This document shows, one piece after another, positions 45,542-56,411 of a stretch of 64,000 bases of DNA. Position numbers and translations under genes: made by a program. The stretch spans positions 5,099,001 through 5,163,000 of the forward strand of contig NZ_CP025791.1 in assembly GCF_002886045.1 (NCBI RefSeq). The letters are read 5' to 3'. This DNA comes from Flavivirga eckloniae. Lineage in GTDB: Bacteria; Bacteroidota; Bacteroidia; Flavobacteriales; Flavobacteriaceae. The notes below the pieces were generated by a model that worked only from the letters and a program-made list of their open reading frames with translations, searched no databases and was not told where the DNA came from. The first letter of the stretch is position 1; the number at the start of each line of letters is the position of its first letter.

Positions 45542-47299
45542 CTACTTAATATCAAACTTAATTTGATCAAATTTTGTTAGCCCCGGAGCGTTACTTATAT
45601 CTTTTTGTAGACAGTATAAGCCTATCCGAGCTCCAATCCAAGCACCAGAGCGCACTTCAAATTCAGGGCCTAGCTTTGTGAAATCCTTTCCATTGGTGCT
45701 AAACGAGAACTGTCCAAGAATTATACCATTAGCATAATGATCTACATCTAATAATTCGTAATCTTGAAGTGTCTTTTTTAGAATCTCCATTTCCTCTTTT
45801 GTAGGTCTGGTTCTATATTTTAATGGTGTAGGAAGTTCTCCATTAGTGTTTAATCGTAACCAGAACTCTGTACCAGTAGTCATTTCAGAGCTCAAAGTTC
45901 GGGTTCCAAAGCGTACCGATACTTTTGTTGTATCTTGTTTTTTTTCTACGCCAATGTCAAAAGATTTTCTGCCTAATGCCGCTAACCCAGCTCGTATTCC
46001 ATCATAATCCGAGGTTTTCATTTTTACTGTTGCAGAAAAACTAAAGGCAGGAAACATTTGGGTTAATACATGTGGGATGTGTTCTAAGCTCTTATCATTA
46101 GTAAAAAGAGCAGGTAAAGTTAGCTTTCCATTTTTTATGCTATACCAATGCTCTTTTGGGTTTGCAAGCCATTGCCATTGTAGACCAAGTGTTTCGCCGT
46201 TAAAATCATCAGAGGTTTGTAATTTATATGGCACAACAGGAAGTGGGTTTTGATAGGTTTTTACAGGAGTTCCGATACCATTATTATTTTTATCGACACC
46301 TATTACAGGCCAATCGTTTTCTGTCCAATGCGCAGGTTCTAATCTAACAATACGCCCTAAAGTACCAACAGACTGAAAATGAATAAACCACCATTCTCCA
46401 GTATGGGATTTTACTAAACCTCCTTGATGGGGACCATTTATTCCCGTATCTCCAGTTTCGCATATGGTACGTATTTCATATGGTCCTTTAGGGGTTTTTG
46501 AACGCAAAGCGGTTTGCCAACCAAATTCCACGCCACCCGCAGGACACAAAATATAAAACCACTCGCCCCGTTTTATGAATTTAGTACCCTCAATAACACT
46601 ATGGTATTTATCTGCAGGAAACTTTTCAGAATCTTTAGCATCGAATACTGTAACCGGATCCCCAATAAGACCCGTACCTTCCCAATTCATTTCCCATACA
46701 TCTATGCGCCCATTAATACCACTGCGAGATGCCGCATGTGCATGCGCAAGATAGGCTTTGCCTGTGTTTTCATCCCAAATAGGAGAAGGATCTATCCAGC
46801 CGGAAACTCTTTTAACTAAAACAGGTTTGCTCCATTTTCCAGCAGGATTTTTTGTTTTTATTTGATAAATCCCTGCATCTGGGTCGCCCCAAAAAATCCA
46901 GAAATAACCATCGTGATAACGAATAGAAGGCGCAAATACTCCTTTACCAAGCCGTGGCACATTATAGTCTAATTGATCTTGACTTCTATTTTTATAGCTA
47001 AAAAAAGCATCTGGTATTTGCTGAATACCATGGCCAATTAATTTCCAATTCACCAAATCTTTAGAATGCAGGATTGGTAACCCCGGGACCATATTGAAAC
47101 TAGAAGCAGTCATATAATAATCTTTACCAACTCTTATAACATCAGGATCGGAAAAATCTGCAGTGATTATTGGGTTTTTGTATGTTGAATACGAGGTTTC
47201 TGTATGTTCTGCTTTTGTCGCTTTTTTACAGGCAGATACAAATAAGAGGATCATTATTAATACAATAAACTGGGGCTTTAATAATCGATTATATGTCAT
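45542..47299 (-). CDS. GH43-family glycoside hydrolase (beta-xylosidase / arabinofuranosidase-like), lipoprotein
   Basis: 585 residues. Lipoprotein signal (IVLIMILLFVSACKK). The five-bladed propeller begins at about residue 44 with ADFSDPDVIRVG, whose second Asp is the general base of GH43, then YYMTASSFNMVPGLPILHSKDLVNW and VFAPSIRYHDGYFWIFWGDPDAG, WIDPSPIWDENTGKAYLAH (cited as parts) and VIEGTKFIKRGEWFYI with the catalytic Glu. The C-terminal 220 residues form a beta-sandwich (GH43_C2-like), typical of the GH43_12 group. It probably releases pentoses from plant or algal xylans or arabinans. It is isolated, beside the repeat island and with no SusC/D genes. Confidence 0.9.
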   Translation of the reverse strand: MTYNRLLKPQFIVLIMILLFVSACKKATKAEHTETSYSTYKNPIITADFSDPDVIRVGKDYYMTASSFNMVPGLPILHSKDLVNWKLIGHGIQQIPDAFFSYKNRSQDQLDYNVPRLGKGVFAPSIRYHDGYFWIFWGDPDAGIYQIKTKNPAGKWSKPVLVKRVSGWIDPSPIWDENTGKAYLAHAHAASRSGINGRIDVWEMNWEGTGLIGDPVTVFDAKDSEKFPADKYHSVIEGTKFIKRGEWFYILCPAGGVEFGWQTALRSKTPKGPYEIRTICETGDTGINGPHQGGLVKSHTGEWWFIHFQSVGTLGRIVRLEPAHWTENDWPVIGVDKNNNGIGTPVKTYQNPLPVVPYKLQTSDDFNGETLGLQWQWLANPKEHWYSIKNGKLTLPALFTNDKSLEHIPHVLTQMFPAFSFSATVKMKTSDYDGIRAGLAALGRKSFDIGVEKKQDTTKVSVRFGTRTLSSEMTTGTEFWLRLNTNGELPTPLKYRTRPTKEEMEILKKTLQDYELLDVDHYANGIILGQFSFSTNGKDFTKLGPEFEVRSGAWIGARIGLYCLQKDISNAPGLTKFDQIKFDIK

Positions 47300-47572
47300 T
47301 GGTAGCAGTTTGTTTTAAGAAGTTTTAAACTAAATAAAGCTGTTCGTCTCACTGGTAATATTATCACTTATTTAGAGCAATCCCCCATAAGGTTATTCAA
47401 AATATTAGTACCCAAATAAAGAAAATGGAGCAGGGGAGCAGGTGAATTGTTTACAAAAGAAGTGATAAGATGGCTTTTTGCTCTCGAAATTTAGGTTTGA
47501 GTAGCATTAATATGAATCGTAATAAAGATTAGTTAATTTAGCAGACAATCTTAATAGACTAAAATTATTTTG
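47300..47572. other. Intergenic region before the ABC exporter
   Basis: About 270 bases between the divergent GH43 and ABC exporter genes. The only notable feature is a tandem 8-base repeat, GGAGCAGG twice at 47427-47442, unusually GC-rich for this genome. No clear full promoter consensus is seen. Confidence 0.5.
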
Positions 47573-49339
47573 ATGCAACACCTTAAAGCCACTCCTAAAA
47601 CGAAAACAAAAAGTAAAGTTACCATAACACAAGCCTTTAAAACCATTATATGGCCACGCCGTAATTTGGTTTTTATTGGTTTAATTTTAATAATAATTAA
47701 AAGTTTGGCAGGTTTAATTTTGCCCTGGCAGAGTAAAGTATTGCTAGACGAGGTAGTGCCTAGTAAGGATATGGACATGCTATACAACTTAATAGCCATC
47801 GTTTTAGGTGCTATTTTTTTACAATCGGTTACATCGTTTTTACTCACACGTATATTGAGTGTACAGGCGCAATACTTAATTAGTGAACTACGGGCGCAGG
47901 TACAGAAAAAAGTACTTTCGTTACCTATTAGTTTTTTCGACAATACCAAGTCTGGTGCTTTGGTATCGCGTATTATGAGCGATGTAGAAGGGGTTAGAAA
48001 CCTTATAGGTACTGGGTTGGTGCAACTGGTTGGTGGAACTTTTACGGCTATTATATCGTTAATTATTTTAATAAAACTAAACCCATGGATGACACTATTT
48101 GTGTTTGTACCACTTTCTATATTCGGTTATGTAGCACTTAGGGCTTTTAAATATATTCGTCCGGTTTTTAGAAAACGAGGTAAGATTAATGAGGAGGTTA
48201 AAGGACGTTTAACCGAAACGTTAGCAGGGGTTCGTGTTATTAAAGCTTTTAATGCCGAAGAACAGGAAAACAAAATTTTTGAAAAAGGTATTGAAAGACT
48301 GTTTCAAAATGTAAAAAAGAGTTTAACGGCTACAGCCTTAATGACGAGTTCTTCTACTTTCTTAATAGGTGTAGCAACTACGGGTATCATGGCAATTGGT
48401 GGTTATTATATGATACAAAGTGAAATGACTACGGGAGAATTTTTATTCTTCACACTCATTTTAGGGTTTATGATTGCGCCAATAATACAAATGAGCAATA
48501 TTGGAAGCCAGTTAACTGAAGCTTTAGCTGGTTTAGATAGAACGGAAGAGCTCATGAATATGACTGCTGAAGAGGATAACGAAAATAGAACCGTACAACT
48601 GGAACGTATAGAAGGCGAGATCGTTTTTGATAATGTGTCGTTTGCTTATGAAGAAGGCAAAGAGGTATTATACGATATTAATTTTAGAGCACCAGCTGGT
48701 TCTACCACGGCTTTAGTAGGTAGTTCCGGGTCGGGTAAGTCTACTATAGCTGGGTTGTCTGCTACATTTTTAAGTCCGAAATCGGGTAAGGTAACTATTG
48801 ACAATCAAGATTTATCGAAAGTGAAATTAAATACTTACCGTCAATATTTGGGAGTAGTATTGCAAGATGAGTTTTTGTTTGAAGGAACTATTAAGGAGAA
48901 TATTATGTTTCCTAGACCTGATGCCACAGAAGGCGAATTGCAAAATGCTGTTAAAGCGGCTTATGTAAATGAGTTTACAGATCGTTTTGAAGATGGTTTA
49001 AATACTTTAATTGGAGAAAGAGGGGTGAAGCTGTCTGGAGGTCAGCGACAACGATTAGCCATTGCTAGAGCTATTTTAGCAGATCCGAAAATTATTATTT
49101 TAGATGAAGCTACCTCAAGTTTAGATACCGAGAGTGAAGCTTTAATACAAAAAAGTTTAACTGAGTTAATTAAAGATAGAACCACCATTGTTATTGCACA
49201 CCGATTAAGTACTATTAGAAAAGCAGACCAAATTTTGGTTATTGAAGCGGGACGTATTGTAGAACGAGGGACACACGATGAGCTGATTGCTTTAAATGGT
49301 AGGTATTATGATTTATATACGTATCAAGCTAAGATTTAA
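47573..49339 (+). CDS. ABC exporter, MsbA/multidrug type (fused permease and ATPase)
   Basis: 588 residues from the ATG at 47573; a TTG one codon earlier also fits the frame. Six transmembrane helices fill residues 30-315 (FIGLILIIIKSLAGLILPW, FLIGVATTGIMAIGGYYMI and others). The nucleotide-binding domain has ALVGSSGSGKSTIAG (Walker A, about 382-396), LSGGQRQRLAIARA (signature, about 487-500) and IIILDEATSSLDTESE (Walker B). Homodimers of this type flip lipids such as lipid A core, or pump drugs. Given the LPS genes elsewhere an MsbA-like role is possible, but no direct link is shown. Confidence 0.93.
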   Translation: MQHLKATPKTKTKSKVTITQAFKTIIWPRRNLVFIGLILIIIKSLAGLILPWQSKVLLDEVVPSKDMDMLYNLIAIVLGAIFLQSVTSFLLTRILSVQAQYLISELRAQVQKKVLSLPISFFDNTKSGALVSRIMSDVEGVRNLIGTGLVQLVGGTFTAIISLIILIKLNPWMTLFVFVPLSIFGYVALRAFKYIRPVFRKRGKINEEVKGRLTETLAGVRVIKAFNAEEQENKIFEKGIERLFQNVKKSLTATALMTSSSTFLIGVATTGIMAIGGYYMIQSEMTTGEFLFFTLILGFMIAPIIQMSNIGSQLTEALAGLDRTEELMNMTAEEDNENRTVQLERIEGEIVFDNVSFAYEEGKEVLYDINFRAPAGSTTALVGSSGSGKSTIAGLSATFLSPKSGKVTIDNQDLSKVKLNTYRQYLGVVLQDEFLFEGTIKENIMFPRPDATEGELQNAVKAAYVNEFTDRFEDGLNTLIGERGVKLSGGQRQRLAIARAILADPKIIILDEATSSLDTESEALIQKSLTELIKDRTTIVIAHRLSTIRKADQILVIEAGRIVERGTHDELIALNGRYYDLYTYQAKI

Positions 49340-49395
49340 AAAGGAATAATATGGGTATGAAAAGTTTAAGTTTTGTGCGTCATTTTTATAACTTA

Positions 49396-50109
49396 TTATT
49401 TGTTATCAAGCGATTCGTTTAATGCGCTCAAAAAAGAATTTTCTTTAATATCTACAACTTCCTCGTCGTTTAGGATACTTATGTTTTTTCCAGAAAAATA
49501 CAACACCTGAAAATCCTCTGGGAATGCTAAAAATTTAAATAAATCTGGTCTATGCAGGGCAAACTCATAAATTGATATAGGTGCAAAATTATCAGGGTCA
49601 TTCCAGCTCGCTTTATCGTCATAGTCAAAAAACCACCATCCAGAACTCCTATTTTCAGGTTCATATCTAATCATTAAGACATTAGGAATGGTTTTATAGT
49701 TTTCGCATACTACTATAGATTGCATGATTGAAGGAAAAAGTAAGTCTGCAGGAGGATCTATGCTTTCTACAATATCTTTTTGTAATCGCATATTTAAAAG
49801 TGTGAAATCTAATGTATTAACGTATTCTATAGGAAATGATTTAAAATCAGGTTCTATTAGTTCAAGAACGTTACCTGTTTCTTTAAATTCAAGAACAACA
49901 CTTCCTATTTGTATACTTTCACCATTATTGTATTTTACACCGTTACTTACTTGTATTTCTAACGTAGAAATAAAAAAATCGATATCAACATCTGGGATGC
50001 TTTTATCGCTTATTGTAAATTGAATTTCCGGATGATTAAATTCTTTACATTTTTTGGTTGTAAAGACTTTTCCTTTTTCTTGTTTTTTTGAAAATAGATT
50101 AAAAGCCAT
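49396..50109 (-). CDS. Uncharacterised protein with Imm33/DUF2185-like C-terminus
   Basis: 237 residues, cytoplasmic by absence of a signal. The N-terminal half (FTTKKCKEFNHPEIQFTISD, cited as the opening block, and FISTLEIQVSNGVKYNNGESIQIG) is not familiar. In the C-terminal half, MIRYEPENRSSGWWFFDYDD...NDPDNFAPISIYEFALHRPDL (given in fragments) has the order R-x-E-P-x-N-x-x-S-G-W-x-F-F and I-Y...P-D that I associate with DUF2185/Imm33 immunity proteins. I see no toxin gene next to it. It follows the ion channel on the same strand after about 260 bases, which contain a hairpin. The domain call is tentative. Confidence 0.55.
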   Translation of the reverse strand: MAFNLFSKKQEKGKVFTTKKCKEFNHPEIQFTISDKSIPDVDIDFFISTLEIQVSNGVKYNNGESIQIGSVVLEFKETGNVLELIEPDFKSFPIEYVNTLDFTLLNMRLQKDIVESIDPPADLLFPSIMQSIVVCENYKTIPNVLMIRYEPENRSSGWWFFDYDDKASWNDPDNFAPISIYEFALHRPDLFKFLAFPEDFQVLYFSGKNISILNDEEVVDIKENSFLSALNESLDNK

Positions 50110-50278
50110 AAGTCTTAAATTATATTTTATTTATAGAGGTTATCGTAATCTTAGCACTTCTGGTAGCTTCAATAGGCTTTGATTCTTTAGCAGAGCGACT
50201 ATATGCTATAAACTAAAAGCATGAGTCATGTTAATTTAGTTTATAATTGGTTTTAATGGTTGCCAACTGAAAAATAGA

Positions 50279-50326
50279 TTGAGCCCTTCAACTCCGTTTT
50301 ATGCTTAGCGCAGTTAAAGTGCTCAA
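50279..50326. terminator. Imperfect inverted repeat after the ion channel gene
   Basis: TTGAGCCCTTCAACT (50279-50293) pairs with AGTTAAAGTGCTCAA (50312-50326) with two mismatches. Outer sequences ATTGGTTTTA (about 50247) and its near complement (about 50331) extend the symmetry. It lies about 45 bases past the channel stop. It may end the Spo0M-channel transcript, or be a dispersed repeat of the CTTCGACT...GCGCAG type seen near 15760. Confidence 0.5.
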
Positions 50327-50371
50327 CCTAATAAAACCAAATGCAATGATTTTTTAGATAATCTTTAAGTA

Positions 50372-51226
50372 TTATTTAATTTTTTGAAACAGTTCTTGAA
50401 CTTCGTTAAGTTTTTGTTCTAAAAGGGCTAAATCCTTTTTAGAACCCTCTTCTGAGGTGTCCATATCTTCTTTTTGTGCATCTGCTTTGGCTTCATCCAT
50501 ACCGGTCATGATAACACCAATAAACAGATTAAGCATGATCATAGTGCCTATTAACACAAATGTTACAAAAAACACAGCACTACCCATTGGGTTAGCGGTA
50601 GAGTTTGTACATAAAGCTTCATTACCATCGTATCCATAGTTTTCACAACCATACATATTAATGTACATCACATCTGTCCAATCCTCTAGAGTTACTACCC
50701 TAAAAAGGGATAGCATAGACATTTGTAAGTTTTCAAAATGTATAGGGTCGTTAGCTCCAAAAAAGAATACCCCTGCTACTGCATAAATGTAAAAGAGCAA
50801 TAAGAGTAAAATGGAAACATAACCTAATGATGGAATACTTTTTAACAGTGCACCAACTAGCATTTGCAATTTTGGCAGGGCTTTTATTAATTTTAAAACC
50901 CTTAGCAAACGGAGTAGTCGTAATACAGCTACCGAACTACCTGCAAAAGGTAAAAATGCTGCTGCAACGATAACAAAATCAAAAATATTCCAAGCATCTG
51001 TAAAGTATAACCACGGTTTATTACCTTCTGCAATCATTTTTACAATAATCTCTGCAATAAAAATGTAAAGAACAATTTTGTTTAAAAGTTCTAGAGTGGA
51101 GGCATGTTTCTCGGAAAAATCTGGATAGGTAGCCATTCCTACCAGTATACCGGCAATTAAAATAGCTACGGTAACAAAATTTCCAAACCATTTGGATACC
51201 GCTATTTTTTTACAAAATTCAACCAT
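50372..51226 (-). CDS. Bacterial voltage-gated ion channel (NaChBac/NavAb-like)
   Basis: 284 residues with S1-S6. S4 carries regularly spaced basic residues ([13 protein letters not shown], about 103-115). The pore loop has the filter TLEDWTD at residues 179-185 (bases 50672-50692), where sodium channels have TLESWSM or TLESWAS. S6 is [21 protein letters not shown], followed by a C-terminal coiled coil ([19 protein letters not shown]), as expected for a homotetramer. Asp at the fourth and seventh filter positions is what makes engineered CavAb (TLDDWSD) select Ca2+, so Ca2+ permeation is a reasonable inference. Two Cys lie in the loop between filter and S6. It is coupled to the Spo0M-like gene, ten bases upstream. 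Confidence 0.9.
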
Positions 51227-51236
51227 GTCTTTTGTT

Positions 51237-51707
51237 TTAAACCAACCTTACTTCTTTTTTGTCTGAAGGATCTATTACAGCACTTTTTACATCTGCTTCA
51301 GCATCAATAAAGTATTCAGACTTTTCATTGTTGGCAAACTTAGATAAGCTACCAACAGCACCTAATGCACCACCTTTTTCTTTTAGGTCGTCGGCTGTAG
51401 AATTAGCCAGTTGATAAGGTAAGCTAAATTGAATATCTTTAGTTTCGCCTGGCTTAATTGTAAAATTCGCAGGTATCGTAACTTCTCCTAAATCAAGTTC
51501 TTTTGTGGTTTTGTTTTCGCCCCTTCCCGTAGTAAACTCTTCAATAAGTTTTACCGTTATGTTAATAACTTCTTGTTCACTTTTAGTAGTTAAAGTAACT
51601 GTACCGTCTACCGAATTGTCGCCTTTTGAAAGTTGACCTGGAACTTGTAGTTTAACTTTTACTCCACCAATTCCTAATTTGTTTTTAATAGTTTGTAAAA
51701 TTCCCAT
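51237..51707 (-). CDS. Spo0M-like (arrestin-fold) protein
   Basis: 156 residues. [24 protein letters not shown] (cited as [14 protein letters not shown], about 22-35), then [17 protein letters not shown] and [11 protein letters not shown] form the beta-sandwich seen in Spo0M/SpoIIIM-type sporulation-control proteins, which share the arrestin fold. Such proteins occur in many non-sporulating bacteria. It lies ten bases upstream of the ion channel gene, on the same strand, so the two are almost certainly co-translated. By analogy with arrestins it may bind the channel's cytoplasmic side; this is inference. Confidence 0.8.
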
Positions 51708-51797
51708 AATTCTAATTTATTTGTTGATTAATATTTTAAGTTGATTGTTATTTGTGCCCCGGTTTATATGTCTTTTATTGGACCTGAGTTAGTGGTG

Positions 51798-52091
51798 TTA
51801 TAGAACTAATTCGATCGATTTGTTTTTTGTCTTTTTACTCTTTTTATGCGATATAACCATGTTTAGTTGTAATGAAGACCCAGAAAAACTTGTTAAGTAG
51901 TAAAAGGTTTCGTGGGTTTCATTTTTAACCTCGTTTTCAAATGGTTTATAAAAATTTAGTTTTCGAATGTTTTCAACACTTTTAGTAATTGCTGAAATGA
52001 AGGAGTTTCCTAGAGTGGGTTTTGTTATAATATTTCTTAAAAGAAATATTATAAATCCAGTCACAATAAATCCAATAATGGCGTAGGTCAT
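51798..52091 (-). CDS. Small membrane-anchored protein of unknown function
   Basis: 97 residues. One N-terminal membrane helix (YAIIGFIVTGFIIFLLRNII) is followed by a basic, soluble part (FLPF-like beta strands: FYYLTSFSGSSLQLNMVISHKKSKKTKNKSIELVL in fragments). The topology would put the rest in the cytoplasm or periplasm, undecided. I do not recognise a family. It lies 90 bases upstream of the Spo0M-like gene on the same strand and about 80 bases after the TPR gene, so it may belong to the same transcript. Confidence 0.6.
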   Translation of the reverse strand: MTYAIIGFIVTGFIIFLLRNIITKPTLGNSFISAITKSVENIRKLNFYKPFENEVKNETHETFYYLTSFSGSSLQLNMVISHKKSKKTKNKSIELVL

Positions 52092-52168
52092 TTTGTCTTT
52101 AGTTTCAAATTTGGGTTAGTTAATGTATTTAGATAAAGAGTGTTATTGTGTTTGTTATAGTGTTGTAA

Positions 52169-52621
52169 TTATTTAAACAGTATCTTTTTTGCCTTTTTAA
52201 CATAACTGCCGTTAGGGTAATACTCAAGATACTTTTCTATAGCAGCTTTATCGTTGTTGCTATTATAAATGGCTTCACAAGCTTCCCATATATTGTCGTC
52301 CATCATACGGGAGTCTGCACCATTATCTTTTGCTTCAGAGTAAAAACCAATAGCTTTAACATAATCCTTTAAAAAGTAATAGGCTACGCCTATTTGGCTT
52401 AAATACAGTCCTTTCTTTTCTGGGTAACTAACGGCAAGCTTTTTATATAGCTCGATAGAATCGTTAAACTTTCCACTGGTTAGAGCACTGGAAGCTTGTC
52501 TTAAAAGTGAATCTTCATCGTCTTTAGGCTTAGGGTTTTCAGAGATATGCTTTTGGTTTTTTTCATTAGCTTGCTCTAATGTCATTTTCTTTTTTCCAAA
52601 TAAGGAATCAAATAGTCCCAT
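52169..52621 (-). CDS. Tetratricopeptide-repeat protein
   Basis: 150 residues. Opens with MGLFDSLFGKKK, a charged amphipathic start. One to three TPR-like units cover about residues 40-130: ALTSGKFNDSIELYKKLAVSYPEK, IGVAYYFLKDYVKAIGFYSEAKDNG (each given as its core: GKFNDSIELYKKLA and KDYVKAIGFYSEAK). The C-terminus (IEKYLEYYPNGSYVKKAKKIL) is another helix pair. No signal peptide. TPR domains mediate protein-protein contacts. Its partner may be encoded in the same minus-strand cluster. Confidence 0.8.
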   Translation of the reverse strand: MGLFDSLFGKKKMTLEQANEKNQKHISENPKPKDDEDSLLRQASSALTSGKFNDSIELYKKLAVSYPEKKGLYLSQIGVAYYFLKDYVKAIGFYSEAKDNGADSRMMDDNIWEACEAIYNSNNDKAAIEKYLEYYPNGSYVKKAKKILFK

Positions 52622-52761
52622 GTTTTAAAGTTTTTAATATTGGTTGGTATATTTAAAAATTGTTGTCAGCATACAAAATGACCAAAATGTTTACGATTGT
52701 TGCTGCTGTTTTTTTAGGTATATAATAGCTAGTTAGTGAGAGAGACTAAAATAATAAGATG

Positions 52762-53268
52762 TTATTTTGTTAGTTTACAGTCTTTTAAAATGAGAGTAGT
52801 GTACTTAAAGTTAGGTTCTATGTGTATTTCCTGCTTTTCAATAGTTCCTTTTATAGTCACTTGAGTTCCTTTTTTTAAAGCAAGAACTTCTTCGGCAACC
52901 GTTGCAGGGAATAAACATTCCAGATCGCAGCCAAAGTCAGGATCGGTAAATCCACTGTCCTTACCTCTAAACTCAAGCCTGGCACCTGTTAATTGAATTT
53001 CGTTGTTAACGTACTTAGACATTTTTCCACTAGAGAAAACGTCTCCTGTAATTGTAGTTGTCTTGCCATCAATTTTAGGGTTTCCTTTTTCTTCGCCTTG
53101 CCAATCTTGACCGTAAATTCCTTTTAGTTTCATGAAGGGGTATGCTTTACTTTCGTCGAAACTGGACAAGTTGGCCTCTGCTATAGATGTATTATCAGTT
53201 TGCTTGTTGGATTTTCCGCATGATAAAAACAGTAAGACTAATGAGAAACAGAAAATTAGTTTTTTCAT
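52762..53268 (-). CDS. Lipoprotein with tRNA_anti-like OB fold
   Basis: 168 residues. Lipoprotein signal (KLIFCFSLVLLFLSCGKS) then a low-complexity linker, and an OB-type beta barrel at about 75-165: ITGDVFSSGKMSKYVNNEIQLTG, CLFPATVAEEVLALKKGTQVTIKGTIEKQ, TLILKDCKL (each shown as a short block). This matches the tRNA_anti-like family, small exported OB-fold proteins of unknown role. A Cys pair (CDLEC) precedes the second block. It is the most upstream gene of the minus-strand cluster, with about 140 bases before the TPR gene. Confidence 0.8.
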   Translation of the reverse strand: MKKLIFCFSLVLLFLSCGKSNKQTDNTSIAEANLSSFDESKAYPFMKLKGIYGQDWQGEEKGNPKIDGKTTTITGDVFSSGKMSKYVNNEIQLTGARLEFRGKDSGFTDPDFGCDLECLFPATVAEEVLALKKGTQVTIKGTIEKQEIHIEPNFKYTTLILKDCKLTK

Positions 53269-53640
53269 TTTTTTAGATTAAGTCCTTTTTTAATAATTTC
53301 GTTGTTGTTATTAAATGGTATTTACATTTGGGTGCTGTAACTATGGCTCACGATTGCTGTATACTTTAGCAGTATGAGTTCTTAGTATGGTTTTTAATAA
53401 CACAACACATATGTTTATATGTGCATACAAATATAATAATATCTTTTATTTATGTACGACCATTTGTTTTTTTTTCAAAATCAGACGCTATTGATACAAA
53501 TTGTAATAAAGAATAACTTAGTTTAGCAAACTAACATAATGCATACAAACTATTTCAAAACTAGCCAGAATACGAGGCATAGGATTGATTGTTTAAGGAG
53601 ACAGATCGTTTAATACTAACGAGAAGAACTAACAAAAAAA
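53269..53640. other. Intergenic region between divergent genes
   Basis: 372 bases between the OB-fold lipoprotein (minus strand) and the DinB gene (plus strand). It has a short ACATAT / ATATGT palindrome near 53406-53422 and otherwise AT-rich sequence. I see no full promoter consensus, gene or RNA. Confidence 0.5.
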
Positions 53641-54159
53641 ATGAAAACATCAGACTTAAAAACAACAGAATACCACGACTATTATGGTAGGTACATTAGT
53701 TTGGTTCCTAAAGAAGTTACATTAATTGATGGTTTTAAAAGGGATCTGGATATGGTTTTACAATTTTTTGAATCCATTCCGTCCGATAAACTAAACTACA
53801 GCTATGCAGCAGGGAAATGGAGTATTAAAGAAGTGTTTCAACATCTAATTGATACCGAGCGAATTTTTCAAAATCGTTGTTTTCGTTTTGCAAGACATGA
53901 CAAAACAGCGATTTCCGGATTTGAGCAAGACGATTACATAGAACCTTCTCAGGCTAATAACAAAAGCTTGGAGTTGCTCGTAGAAGAGTTTAAAGCTGTT
54001 CGTCAAAGTTTTATGGTATTGCTTAAGAGCCTAAATGATACCGATTTAAAATTTATTGGTAACGCCAGTGGGTTAAATATGTCTGCAAGGGCAGCGGCTT
54101 TTACTATTTTAGGGCATTCTATTTGGCACATTAATGTTATAAAAGAGCGTTACCTATAG
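53641..54159 (+). CDS. DinB-family protein (metal-dependent, DinB_2 type)
   Basis: 172 residues, four-helix bundle. The metal histidines can be read in VFQHLIDTERIFQNR (about 67-81, H about 70), and FTILGHSIWHINVIKERY (about 154-171, two His). The Y-A-x-G-K-W-S-I-K-E segment just before is typical of DinB_2. Bacterial members are thiol-S-transferases or mycothiol/bacillithiol-type enzymes, or have no known role. Its stop overlaps the convergent MFS gene by six bases. Confidence 0.85.
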   Translation: MKTSDLKTTEYHDYYGRYISLVPKEVTLIDGFKRDLDMVLQFFESIPSDKLNYSYAAGKWSIKEVFQHLIDTERIFQNRCFRFARHDKTAISGFEQDDYIEPSQANNKSLELLVEEFKAVRQSFMVLLKSLNDTDLKFIGNASGLNMSARAAAFTILGHSIWHINVIKERYL

Positions 54160-55368
54160 TTTAGCCGTGGTTAACTTCTTTTTTCTTTTTAAGAGCATAA
54201 ATGTTAAAAGTGACAGGATACCAAAAAATGAAAAACCAATAAACACGGGCAGTACAGAATCGCTAACAAAACTACCTATATAGTTGGCTATAGGAACAGC
54301 CATAACGGTAGAAACACAGCCATTAATAGCAGCTCCAATACCTGCAATGTGCCCTAAGGGCTGCATGGCTAATGCTCTTAAATTTCCAAAAATAAAGCCT
54401 ACAGCAAAAAACTGTAAACCGAAGAATGTTAAAAGGATAGTGATACTTGGATTTTCTCCCGACCAAAATAAAACAATATACGAAACAGATATTACAGCAT
54501 AAGCTATAGTAGCCAAGTATGCAATACGCCACATACCATATTTTACAACAAAGACACTGTTTAAATAAGTTGCCAACCCTATAGATATCGCCAAACTTGC
54601 AAAAATATAGGGGAACATGTCTGCCAGATCGTATTGCTCCTGAAAAATTTGCTGCGAGGTACTTAAGTACACCATAAACGACCCGTTTACAAATCCAGAA
54701 ATAAGTGTAAAGGCAACGGCATCATTATATTTAATAAATTCCTTGGCACCGTCTATAAATAAGTGCGAGGTAAATTTTATACGTTTCTCTTTTGGTAACG
54801 TTTCCGGTTGTCGTTTCCAAAACCAGAGTACGATTAAAAGACCGTATATTAAATTCACATAAAAAATAGATTCCCAATTATAAAAATTAAGCAAAAACTG
54901 ACCTAATGATGGAGCGATTACCGGAACTAAAATAAAAACCATAACTACTATAGATAATATTTTAGCCATATAATCGCCGCTATACGAATCTCTTACAATA
55001 GCAATACTTAACGTTCTTGGAGAGGATAGTCCTATGCCTTGAAGCACTCGGCCTATTATCATCATTTCAAAACTTTTGGTCGTTACACAAATAATACTGG
55101 CTATTATAAATACTACAAACCCTATATATACGATTGGTTTTCTACCAAAACTATCGGACAAGGGACCAAAAATAAGCTGACCAACTCCTAGCCCCAAAAA
55201 AATCATGGTAATTAGCAATTGGTTATCGTTTAAATTAACTGTACCTATAACCTCTCCAATTTTTGGAAGAGCAGGCAATAGGGCGTCTATTGATAGGGCA
55301 ACAATAGACATTAAAGAAGCCATTAATGCGACAAATTCTAGTCGAAATTTATTATTTGGGTTTTGCAT
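54154..55368 (-). CDS. MFS transporter, Bcr/CflA drug-resistance family
   Basis: 404 residues with twelve helices. SIDALLPALPKIGEVIG (about 26-42), then GQLIFGPLSDSFGRKPIVYIGF (cited as GPLSDSFGRKP, about 67-77, motif A between helices 2 and 3) and GRVLQGIGLSSPRTLSIAIVRD (cited as RVLQGIG) are the Bcr/CflA signatures. These pumps export chloramphenicol, bicyclomycin, sulfonamides or similar using the proton gradient. The actual substrate is unknown. It ends in a basic tail (KRKKKLTTAKL) and is convergent with the DinB gene. Confidence 0.93.
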   Translation of the reverse strand: MQNPNNKFRLEFVALMASLMSIVALSIDALLPALPKIGEVIGTVNLNDNQLLITMIFLGLGVGQLIFGPLSDSFGRKPIVYIGFVVFIIASIICVTTKSFEMMIIGRVLQGIGLSSPRTLSIAIVRDSYSGDYMAKILSIVVMVFILVPVIAPSLGQFLLNFYNWESIFYVNLIYGLLIVLWFWKRQPETLPKEKRIKFTSHLFIDGAKEFIKYNDAVAFTLISGFVNGSFMVYLSTSQQIFQEQYDLADMFPYIFASLAISIGLATYLNSVFVVKYGMWRIAYLATIAYAVISVSYIVLFWSGENPSITILLTFFGLQFFAVGFIFGNLRALAMQPLGHIAGIGAAINGCVSTVMAVPIANYIGSFVSDSVLPVFIGFSFFGILSLLTFMLLKRKKKLTTAKL

Positions 55369-55488
55369 GTTGCAAAAGTAGGATATATATAGTTGTTAAG
55401 ACTTAATTTAAATGTTACAAAAATTATAATTTATCTTTTTTATGATTTGAAAAGTCGAAGTGTTTTTTATATTTACATAAAAAAAAAC

Positions 55489-55932
55489 ATGAAATATATT
55501 ACGTTTGCTTTAGTACTATCTCTTTTTGTTTCTTGTAGTAGTGATGATGAAAAAGATTATGTCACTTTAAATGATCAGGAAATCACAGAATATATTGCAA
55601 AAAATAACTTGAATGCAAAGAAAAGCTCTACCGGTTTATATTATGTAATCGAAGAAGCAGGAACAGGAACGCAGCCTAATGCGGCATCTAATGTTACCGT
55701 TGCTTATAAAGGTTATTTAACCGATGGAACTGTTTTTGACGAAAGTGATTCTTATAAAACAGATTTGGTTAATGTAATTCCAGGTTGGAGAGAAGGTATT
55801 GCTTATTTTAAAGAAGGGGGTAGAGGTAAGCTATTAATACCATCCCATTTGGCATATCGTAATGAGTCTGTTGGTACTATTCCTCCTTATGCTGTTCTGG
55901 TTTTTGATATCAATCTTATTTCTGTAAATTAG
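55489..55932 (+). CDS. FKBP-type peptidyl-prolyl isomerase, lipoprotein
   Basis: The frame opens at 55393, but the lipoprotein signal begins at MKYITFALVLSLFVSC, so I start at 55489 (147 residues). The lipobox Cys is followed by SSDDEKD. The FKBP domain covers about 55-147: VTVAYKGYLTDGTVFDES, VIPGWREGIAYFKEGGRGKLLIPSHLAY and PPYAVLVFDINLISV (given in short blocks), with the conserved V-x-V-x-Y-x-G, Gly-Trp and hydrophobic pocket residues. It helps fold exported proteins. It is divergent from the MFS gene and has its own leader. Confidence 0.92.
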   Translation: MKYITFALVLSLFVSCSSDDEKDYVTLNDQEITEYIAKNNLNAKKSSTGLYYVIEEAGTGTQPNAASNVTVAYKGYLTDGTVFDESDSYKTDLVNVIPGWREGIAYFKEGGRGKLLIPSHLAYRNESVGTIPPYAVLVFDINLISVN

Positions 55933-55997
55933 AGAGAAAATATTAAGAAGGTGCTTTTTTTATGGAAAAGCGGCCTCTTTATTAACTCTTTTATTTT

Positions 55998-56411
55998 ATG
56001 CAAGATCATTATAGTTTAAGTGATGTCGAATTTACAGATCAATTTAAAAAGGCCATATTAGATCCGAAACTATTTAGTCATGATGCACACTTGCGCCTGG
56101 CTTGGATTTATATAAATAATGACGGCTTAGATTTGGCTATAAAGCAAATAACGCATGAGCTAAAAGGTTTTGTTACATCGTTAGGTGCTATAGATAAATA
56201 CAATGAAACAGTTACAGTTGCAGCTATTAAAGCTGTGTATCATTTTTGGTTAAAATCCGATTCTAAAACCTTTCAGGATTTTATTTTAGAAAATCCAAGA
56301 TTAAAGACCAACTTTAAAGCGTTATTAGCTAGCCATTACGATATTGAGATATTTAATTCTAAAACAGCAAAATCCAGCTTTTTAGAACCAACCCTGTTAC
56401 CATTTGATTAA
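55998..56411 (+). CDS. Conserved hypothetical protein (H-D-A-H-L-R-L motif)
   Basis: 137 residues, all-helical in appearance, no signal peptide. The most conserved-looking parts are FSHDAHLRLAWIYINNDG (about 27-44) and KYNETVTVAAIKAVYHFW (about 68-85), which I have seen as a recurring unnamed family. The HDAHLRLAW block has two His that could bind a metal. No function is known to me. It lies upstream of the cyclase-family gene on the same strand with a 19-base gap, so the two are probably co-transcribed. Confidence 0.7.
   Translation: MQDHYSLSDVEFTDQFKKAILDPKLFSHDAHLRLAWIYINNDGLDLAIKQITHELKGFVTSLGAIDKYNETVTVAAIKAVYHFWLKSDSKTFQDFILENPRLKTNFKALLASHYDIEIFNSKTAKSSFLEPTLLPFD

Follow-up and report, generated by a model that had tools for sequence, protein, structure and literature searches.

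A half-arrestin gene recurrently adjacent to a voltage-gated cation channel gene in Flavivirga eckloniae and other Bacteroidota

Two adjacent minus-strand genes, one for a Spo0M-like protein and one for a voltage-gated cation channel, lie within a 64,000-nucleotide stretch of Flavivirga eckloniae DNA (contig NZ_CP025791.1, positions 5,099,001 to 5,163,000; hereafter the window, numbered from its first letter), which is one part of a 5.67 Mb genome. The Spo0M-like gene (51237..51707, ATG at 51707) encodes a protein of 156 amino acids assigned to PF07070, described below as a single arrestin N-lobe. The channel gene (50372..51226) encodes a single-domain protein of 284 amino acids with six transmembrane segments, the Ion_trans domain and the filter TLEDWTD, and is AnclNav-like. 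Ten bases (51227..51236, AACAAAAGAC) separate the stop of the former from the ATG of the latter. All six open reading frames (ORFs) of this region are found on the minus strand where an earlier note on this DNA had placed them, and the ten-base spacing is likewise as it had been described. That note had also taken the two genes to be translationally linked, which goes too far: the genes do not overlap, and a short gap of this kind supports co-transcription only.

The channel protein contains one complete Ion_trans domain, its residues 11-250 covering positions 1-240 of the 241 in the profile (181 bits, cut-off 25). Reading of the sequence places a basic residue at every third position of the fourth transmembrane segment (S4), and the five S4 charges are invariant in 17 aligned channels that are paired with a Spo0M-like gene (see below). 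The filter is of the acid-rich TLEDWTD/TLEGWVD kind and not of the TLESW kind. The same seven residues form the filter of NavPp, a member of the AnclNav group described as Na+-conducting with a low-affinity block by Ca2+ (PMC7041947), and because the two filters are identical the window channel is most simply read as an AnclNav-type channel. Phylogenetic analysis separates channels of the window's type from four other Bacteroidota channels, two of which have the NavAb-like filter TLESWSM, at 100/99, in a tree that has long branches and a split outgroup and from which NavPp and CavMr are absent. The AlphaFold2 model of the channel (predicted local distance difference test, pLDDT, 56) was too poor for use. 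Channel ORFs at three other Bacteroidota loci, L034 (G567), L037 (G323) and L038 (G318), carry a glycine at filter position 4 (TLEGWID, TLEGWTD), a residue linked to native Ca2+ selectivity in CavMr, whose filter is TLEGWVD (PMC7041947); it is possible that these are further native bacterial Ca2+ channels.

The Spo0M-like protein matches PF07070 well above the cut-off (44.6 bits against 23), along positions 6-129 only of the 213 in the profile, and the family is matched at E 1e-3 by 44 of its 50 aligned relatives. Full-length Spo0M has two lobes, a feature that the 156-residue protein lacks, and we therefore use the label Spo0M-like rather than Spo0M. AlphaFold2, run on the alignment of 50 relatives, predicts a helix and, after it, a beta-sandwich (pLDDT 72.7 on average, residues 104-124 mostly below 50). 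Among the best 50 of 287 Foldseek matches at E 0.001 or better, the top ones are both chains of Bacillus subtilis Spo0M (5cl2; E 1.1e-8, template modelling score 0.65 by query, root mean square deviation 4.8), and the next among the matches listed are the N-lobes of ARRDC3 (4r7v/4r7x) and TXNIP (4gei/4gfx) together with beta-arrestins (48 rows, E 3.5e-7 to 1.9e-5). A profile built from 50 Spo0Ms also recovered 5cl2 from the solved structures (3.4e-5), while a search of the same kind with the single Spo0M-like sequence returned nothing relevant. To judge from this model, which is of moderate confidence, the protein is a single arrestin N-lobe with an arrestin-type beta-sandwich. The Spo0M/arrestin fold previously attributed to it can thus be kept as far as the predicted match to B. 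subtilis Spo0M and human arrestin N-lobes goes, for one lobe and not for a whole Spo0M. We considered that the half-arrestin might bind membranes through an N-terminal helix and rejected this: AlphaFold2 places a helix at residues 3-13, but its hydrophobic moment is reached by 18-58% of shuffles (30 sequences).

To see how often the two genes occur together, we surveyed Spo0M-like loci by a short-pattern scan of one genome per species, in which members can be missed; of 103 confirmed loci, the 80 best were retained. The window's type accounts for 31 of these (L055-L085), with proteins 51-79% identical to the window's, and in 17 of the 31 the direct same-strand neighbour is a channel gene. This count includes L072, a metagenome assembly with an interrupted Spo0M frame, and L073, whose channel differs from the others. 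The adjacency asked after in the earlier note therefore extends to 17 other genomes and is not restricted to the source genome; its proposal of a link between a protein of arrestin fold and a voltage-gated channel gains from the recurrence of the pair in unrelated contexts and in both gene orders. Spo0M comes first in seven pairs (L055, L057-L060, L068, L072), with 10 bases between the genes in the window and 11-21 in the six other pairs with an intact Spo0M; the channel comes first in ten (L065, L067, L069, L073, L076-L081), with gaps of 23-55 bases except for 202 in L080. The nearest other pair belongs to a genome of the same genus, G301 (channel 84% and Spo0M 79% identical). At the 49 more distant loci (42% identity or less; mostly Saprospiraceae, some other Bacteroidota and two Dojkabacteria), a channel gene was found in none within the flanks covered.

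Two side observations concern the surveyed loci themselves. In two metagenome assemblies (L072:4643-5111 and L082:1421-1807) the Spo0M-like frame is interrupted at about the same point, and decay and assembly error are indistinguishable there. At the distant loci L086-L134 (Saprospiraceae and relatives), a protein of about 160 amino acids with a '(R)VWIYQ'-like start is encoded on the same strand ahead of the Spo0M-like gene in 24 of the 46 readable loci (3 of the 49 being unreadable); a Pfam search of the one tested gave no family, and this protein is possibly a second partner of the Spo0M-like fold.

Is the pairing more than shared ancestry? The 18 pairs (17 and that of the window) form nine groups which share no flanking genes with one another in the stretches covered. 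Without grouping, the channel family occurs at 18 of 32 Spo0M loci and the next neighbour family at five; counted by context, the figures are 10 of 19 and 2, it being understood that the contexts are defined by the shared neighbours themselves, which lowers the by-context counts of the other families. The Spo0M-channel pair is thus more than a chance association, which the six-gene cluster (see below) is not. In the channel tree (39 rows, with long branches and a split outgroup), a single clade of 20 rows (96/99) contains every paired channel but that of L073, along with three unpaired ones; it is within this clade that the gene order changes. Paired and solo Spo0Ms are interspersed in the Spo0M tree (also 39 rows). 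The most telling single case is L073, in which the Spo0M, 58% identical to the window's, is paired with a non-orthologous channel: the neighbour is an Ion_trans protein (138 bits), 34% identical to the window channel over residues 2-176 and 28% over a longer alignment, with the filter TGEDWTD, the S4 sequence RVLRVFRILRLLR and a very long branch outside the main clade.

Seen from the channel side, both genes are rare and patchy in distribution. Within the genus (12 genomes), an intact window-type channel is found only in G000, which is the window's genome, and G301, and exactly these two match the Spo0M profile; G305 and G302 have channel fragments only (residues 122-196 and 218-281) and no Spo0M, and the remaining genomes have other channels only, at 24-29% identity. 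In a sample of the family (n=299), Spo0M occurs in two genomes (G000, G156) and the channel in four (these two, G033 at 75% and G043 at 64%), so that both genes are present in two, the channel alone in two and Spo0M alone in none (Fisher p for co-occurrence 1.3e-4 with the window, 0.010 without it). In the order sample (n=395) the channel occurs in G000 and, at 36% identity, in one further genome; the phylum sample (n=296) adds 24 more Bacteroidota genomes that have a related channel, some only 36-47% identical or fragments. For other phyla the survey covered plasmids, which contribute 39 channel records, all below 60% identity; a search for Spo0M on plasmids gave no matches.

Three further proteins deserve a separate mention. 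The 800- and 764-residue proteins at L154:1556-3958 (G575) and L155:2889-5183 (G494) combine an Ion_trans pore domain with Castor/Pollux-mid and Slo-like RCK domains, and in this resemble the plant CASTOR/POLLUX channels. At L152 (plasmid NZ_CP081104.1 of Ruegeria conchae), type VI secretion genes surround an ion transporter gene that is akin to the window channel's.

A number of these and further results speak against a partnership of the two proteins, or at least against an obligate one. The channel is present without Spo0M in G033 and G043, despite the 75% and 64% identity of their channels, and no Spo0M lies within 1.5 kb of any of the 24 phylum-sample channels. Whole-genome searches with the window-type Spo0M profile, which as a control matches G000 and G301, gave nothing in 29 genomes (the 24, G033, G043, G302, G305 and G974). 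PF07070, which recovered the positive controls G156 and G301, matched once in the same 29, a full-length Spo0M in G575 on a contig other than the channel's; a PF07070 protein is thus absent from 23 of the 24 phylum-sample channel genomes, and of 26 other genomes that have related channels 25 lack a Spo0M of any kind. Five of the 39 plasmid channel records were examined and have no annotated Spo0M, and two Spo0M profiles found none among their 54 ORFs. Conversely, the 14 genomes with a window-type Spo0M lacking the adjacency were searched whole, since some of their loci end close to Spo0M (L056, L071, L074): three have the channel elsewhere (G690, G695 and, in split pieces, G702) and 11 have none at E 1e-10, an absence that is soft because eight of these are metagenome-assembled genome (MAG) records and one is a bin (L063 and L064 carry the same species name). 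The residues offer no signature either, there being no column invariant in the 17 paired channels yet different in 8 unpaired ones, and no Spo0M residue that at least 16 of 17 paired proteins share and at most 4 of 13 unpaired ones. With all paired channels but one in the same clade, independent pairing events are few, and L073 is one case only, from a metagenome assembly. Since each gene is also found without the other, the two form a facultative partnership, which covers part of the channel's range only. Separation has a natural example in Aquimarina (G695), where L157 has a neighbourhood similar to that of L080, with the channel and a ferritin-like gene, and lacks the Spo0M between them, its Spo0M being on another contig (L071).

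What could the two proteins do together? The short gap, the indifference to gene order, the persistence in changed surroundings and the joint absence within the genus all fit two products working on one thing. The channel gene would yield a voltage-gated cation channel of AnclNav type, homotetrameric by analogy and probably Na+-conducting with Ca2+ block, as is NavPp, whose filter is identical. From the Spo0M-like gene would come a soluble single arrestin N-lobe that may dock on the cytosolic side of the channel and, as an auxiliary subunit, tune how it gates, how stable it is or how much of it is present; that the genes are co-transcribed, that the proteins bind and where, and which way the effect runs are what we infer. 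A parallel exists in eukaryotes, where angiotensin II is reported to bring an arrestin to a voltage-gated channel, beta-arrestin1 to CaV1.2, and to decrease the L-type current (PMC5578992). We lean, tentatively and at a little less than even chances, towards a facultative module of two genes, with the half-arrestin as regulator of the channel. The broader proposition, that Bacteroidota use a free arrestin N-lobe as a dedicated cytosolic regulator for voltage-gated channels of the Na+/Ca2+ type, one that can pair with channels of more than one subfamily, is possible, though we would bet against it.

These readings and their rivals overlap, and the likelihoods given to them need not add up to certainty. 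The rival we take most seriously is that the genes are co-regulated without contact between their products, both answering one stress (of salt, ions or membrane potential) and the half-arrestin having other membrane or division proteins as its targets, because B. subtilis Spo0M has been reported to co-precipitate division and membrane-organising proteins (PMC5325327) and 11 of the 14 non-adjacent Spo0M genomes have no detected channel. In a 2025 interactome paper, Spo0M figures solely as a protein enriched with SigA under ethanol stress (PMC12434083). Shared regulation does not readily explain why a channel stands at 18 of 32 loci when every other neighbour family reaches five at most, nor why L073 pairs Spo0M with a different channel, and we consider this rival doubtful but well within reach. 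The order-independent pairing with two different channels would suit a folding helper as well as a regulator, and the half-arrestin could then be an assembly or membrane-insertion chaperone outside the working complex; related channels of other Bacteroidota, however, manage without it, which makes such a role unlikely. The single 20-row clade (96/99) holding 17 of 18 paired channels, like the rarity and patchiness of both genes, is what would be expected of an old pair that moves as one piece by neutral synteny or joint horizontal transfer, its adjacency having no functional meaning. Against this stand the flipped gene order with adjacency retained, the nine unrelated contexts and the joint absence within the genus, and we regard neutral linkage as quite unlikely.

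There remains the larger unit of six genes. Upstream of Spo0M are a 97-residue protein with a hydrophobic N-terminal segment (51798..52091), for which a Pfam search gave no family and which is accessory at most, then a 150-residue TPR protein (52169..52621; TPR_6, 28.8 bits, cut-off 26.3) and a putative lipoprotein of 168 amino acids (52762..53268); 262 bases after the channel follows a 237-residue Imm33-like protein (49396..50109; PF24719, 64 bits, cut-off 27). All are on the minus strand, and the gaps of the run other than that between the core genes measure 90, 77, 140 and 262 bases. The lipoprotein ORF is present as previously described, but its OB-fold label is weak, the match to tRNA_anti-like PF12869 (14.2 bits) being below the cut-off of 23.5. 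The common strand and gaps of 10-262 bases would agree with one functional operon, as would the 66% identical TPR homologue and the Imm33 fragment at the syntenic place in G302. There, however, the TPR gene survives beside channel debris, with neither an intact channel nor Spo0M, and in up to 6 kb around the 17 other pairs we found TPR, OB-like and Imm33-like genes near none and a homologue of the 97-residue protein near one (L055, same genus, 38% over 48 amino acids). A six-gene system was rejected on these grounds, and one operon of all six genes is highly improbable; the TPR, OB-like, Imm33-like and small membrane genes are local neighbours, the first three of them lying outside the conserved unit. 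Of the undescribed system that had been suspected here, the recurrent Spo0M-channel pair stands and the wider cluster does not: the arrestin-channel idea is now supported across genera. Sigma-70-type promoter matches (15, with 19.5 expected) and terminator-like matches (2, with 2.3 expected) are not above chance, a Bacteroidota-type promoter pattern has no full match on the minus strand of 49300-53700, and in 47000-56000 Rfam gave no matches that reach gathering scores. Downstream of the channel gene, the intergenic gap contains a perfect 11-base AT-rich inverted repeat (50207-50245, TATAAACTAAA/TTTAGTTTATA) with arms 17 bases apart.

Bacterial relatives of Nav and Cav channels, which serve as standard models of eukaryotic excitability, are mostly investigated as tetramers on their own; for these, the product of a conserved partner gene would be a candidate for an auxiliary subunit on the cytosolic side. 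The recurrence of the pair in marine Bacteroidota suggests that bacteria, like animals, may control a voltage-gated channel by an arrestin-like protein; if this is true, arrestin-type control of such channels exists outside eukaryotes, without receptor kinases or ubiquitin, and the Spo0M/arrestin fold would gain a concrete bacterial membrane target. The component families are of known kinds, and as far as our searches tell the Spo0M-channel pairing is undescribed in the open-licence papers of PubMed Central, where no paper joins two of the terms 'bacterial arrestin', 'Spo0M' and 'ion channel'.

A related proposal was made in 2008, when Spo0M was raised as a possible primordial signalling partner of seven-transmembrane receptors (PMC2515105), a suggestion that would become testable with two small proteins. 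As in that proposal, Spo0M would here be the partner of a membrane protein, but the candidate partner is a voltage-gated channel, and the word 'channel' is unmatched in the main text of that paper. With the AnclNav group (NavPp, CavMr) the window channel shares the single Ion_trans domain, the charged S4 and a filter equal to that of NavPp, and it differs in having a Spo0M-like gene as its neighbour; 'operon', 'Bacteroidetes' and 'Flavobacter' are unmatched in the main text of PMC7041947. B. subtilis Spo0M (PF07070, 5cl2) is the best structural match of the Spo0M-like protein, which likewise scores above the PF07070 cut-off, whereas the window protein has one lobe rather than two, is 156 amino acids long and adjoins a channel. 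Its predicted fold is that of the alpha-arrestin N-lobes (ARRDC3, TXNIP) and of beta-arrestins; unlike arrestins it has no C-lobe, and the annotated families of the window locus include neither a receptor kinase nor a ubiquitin ligase.

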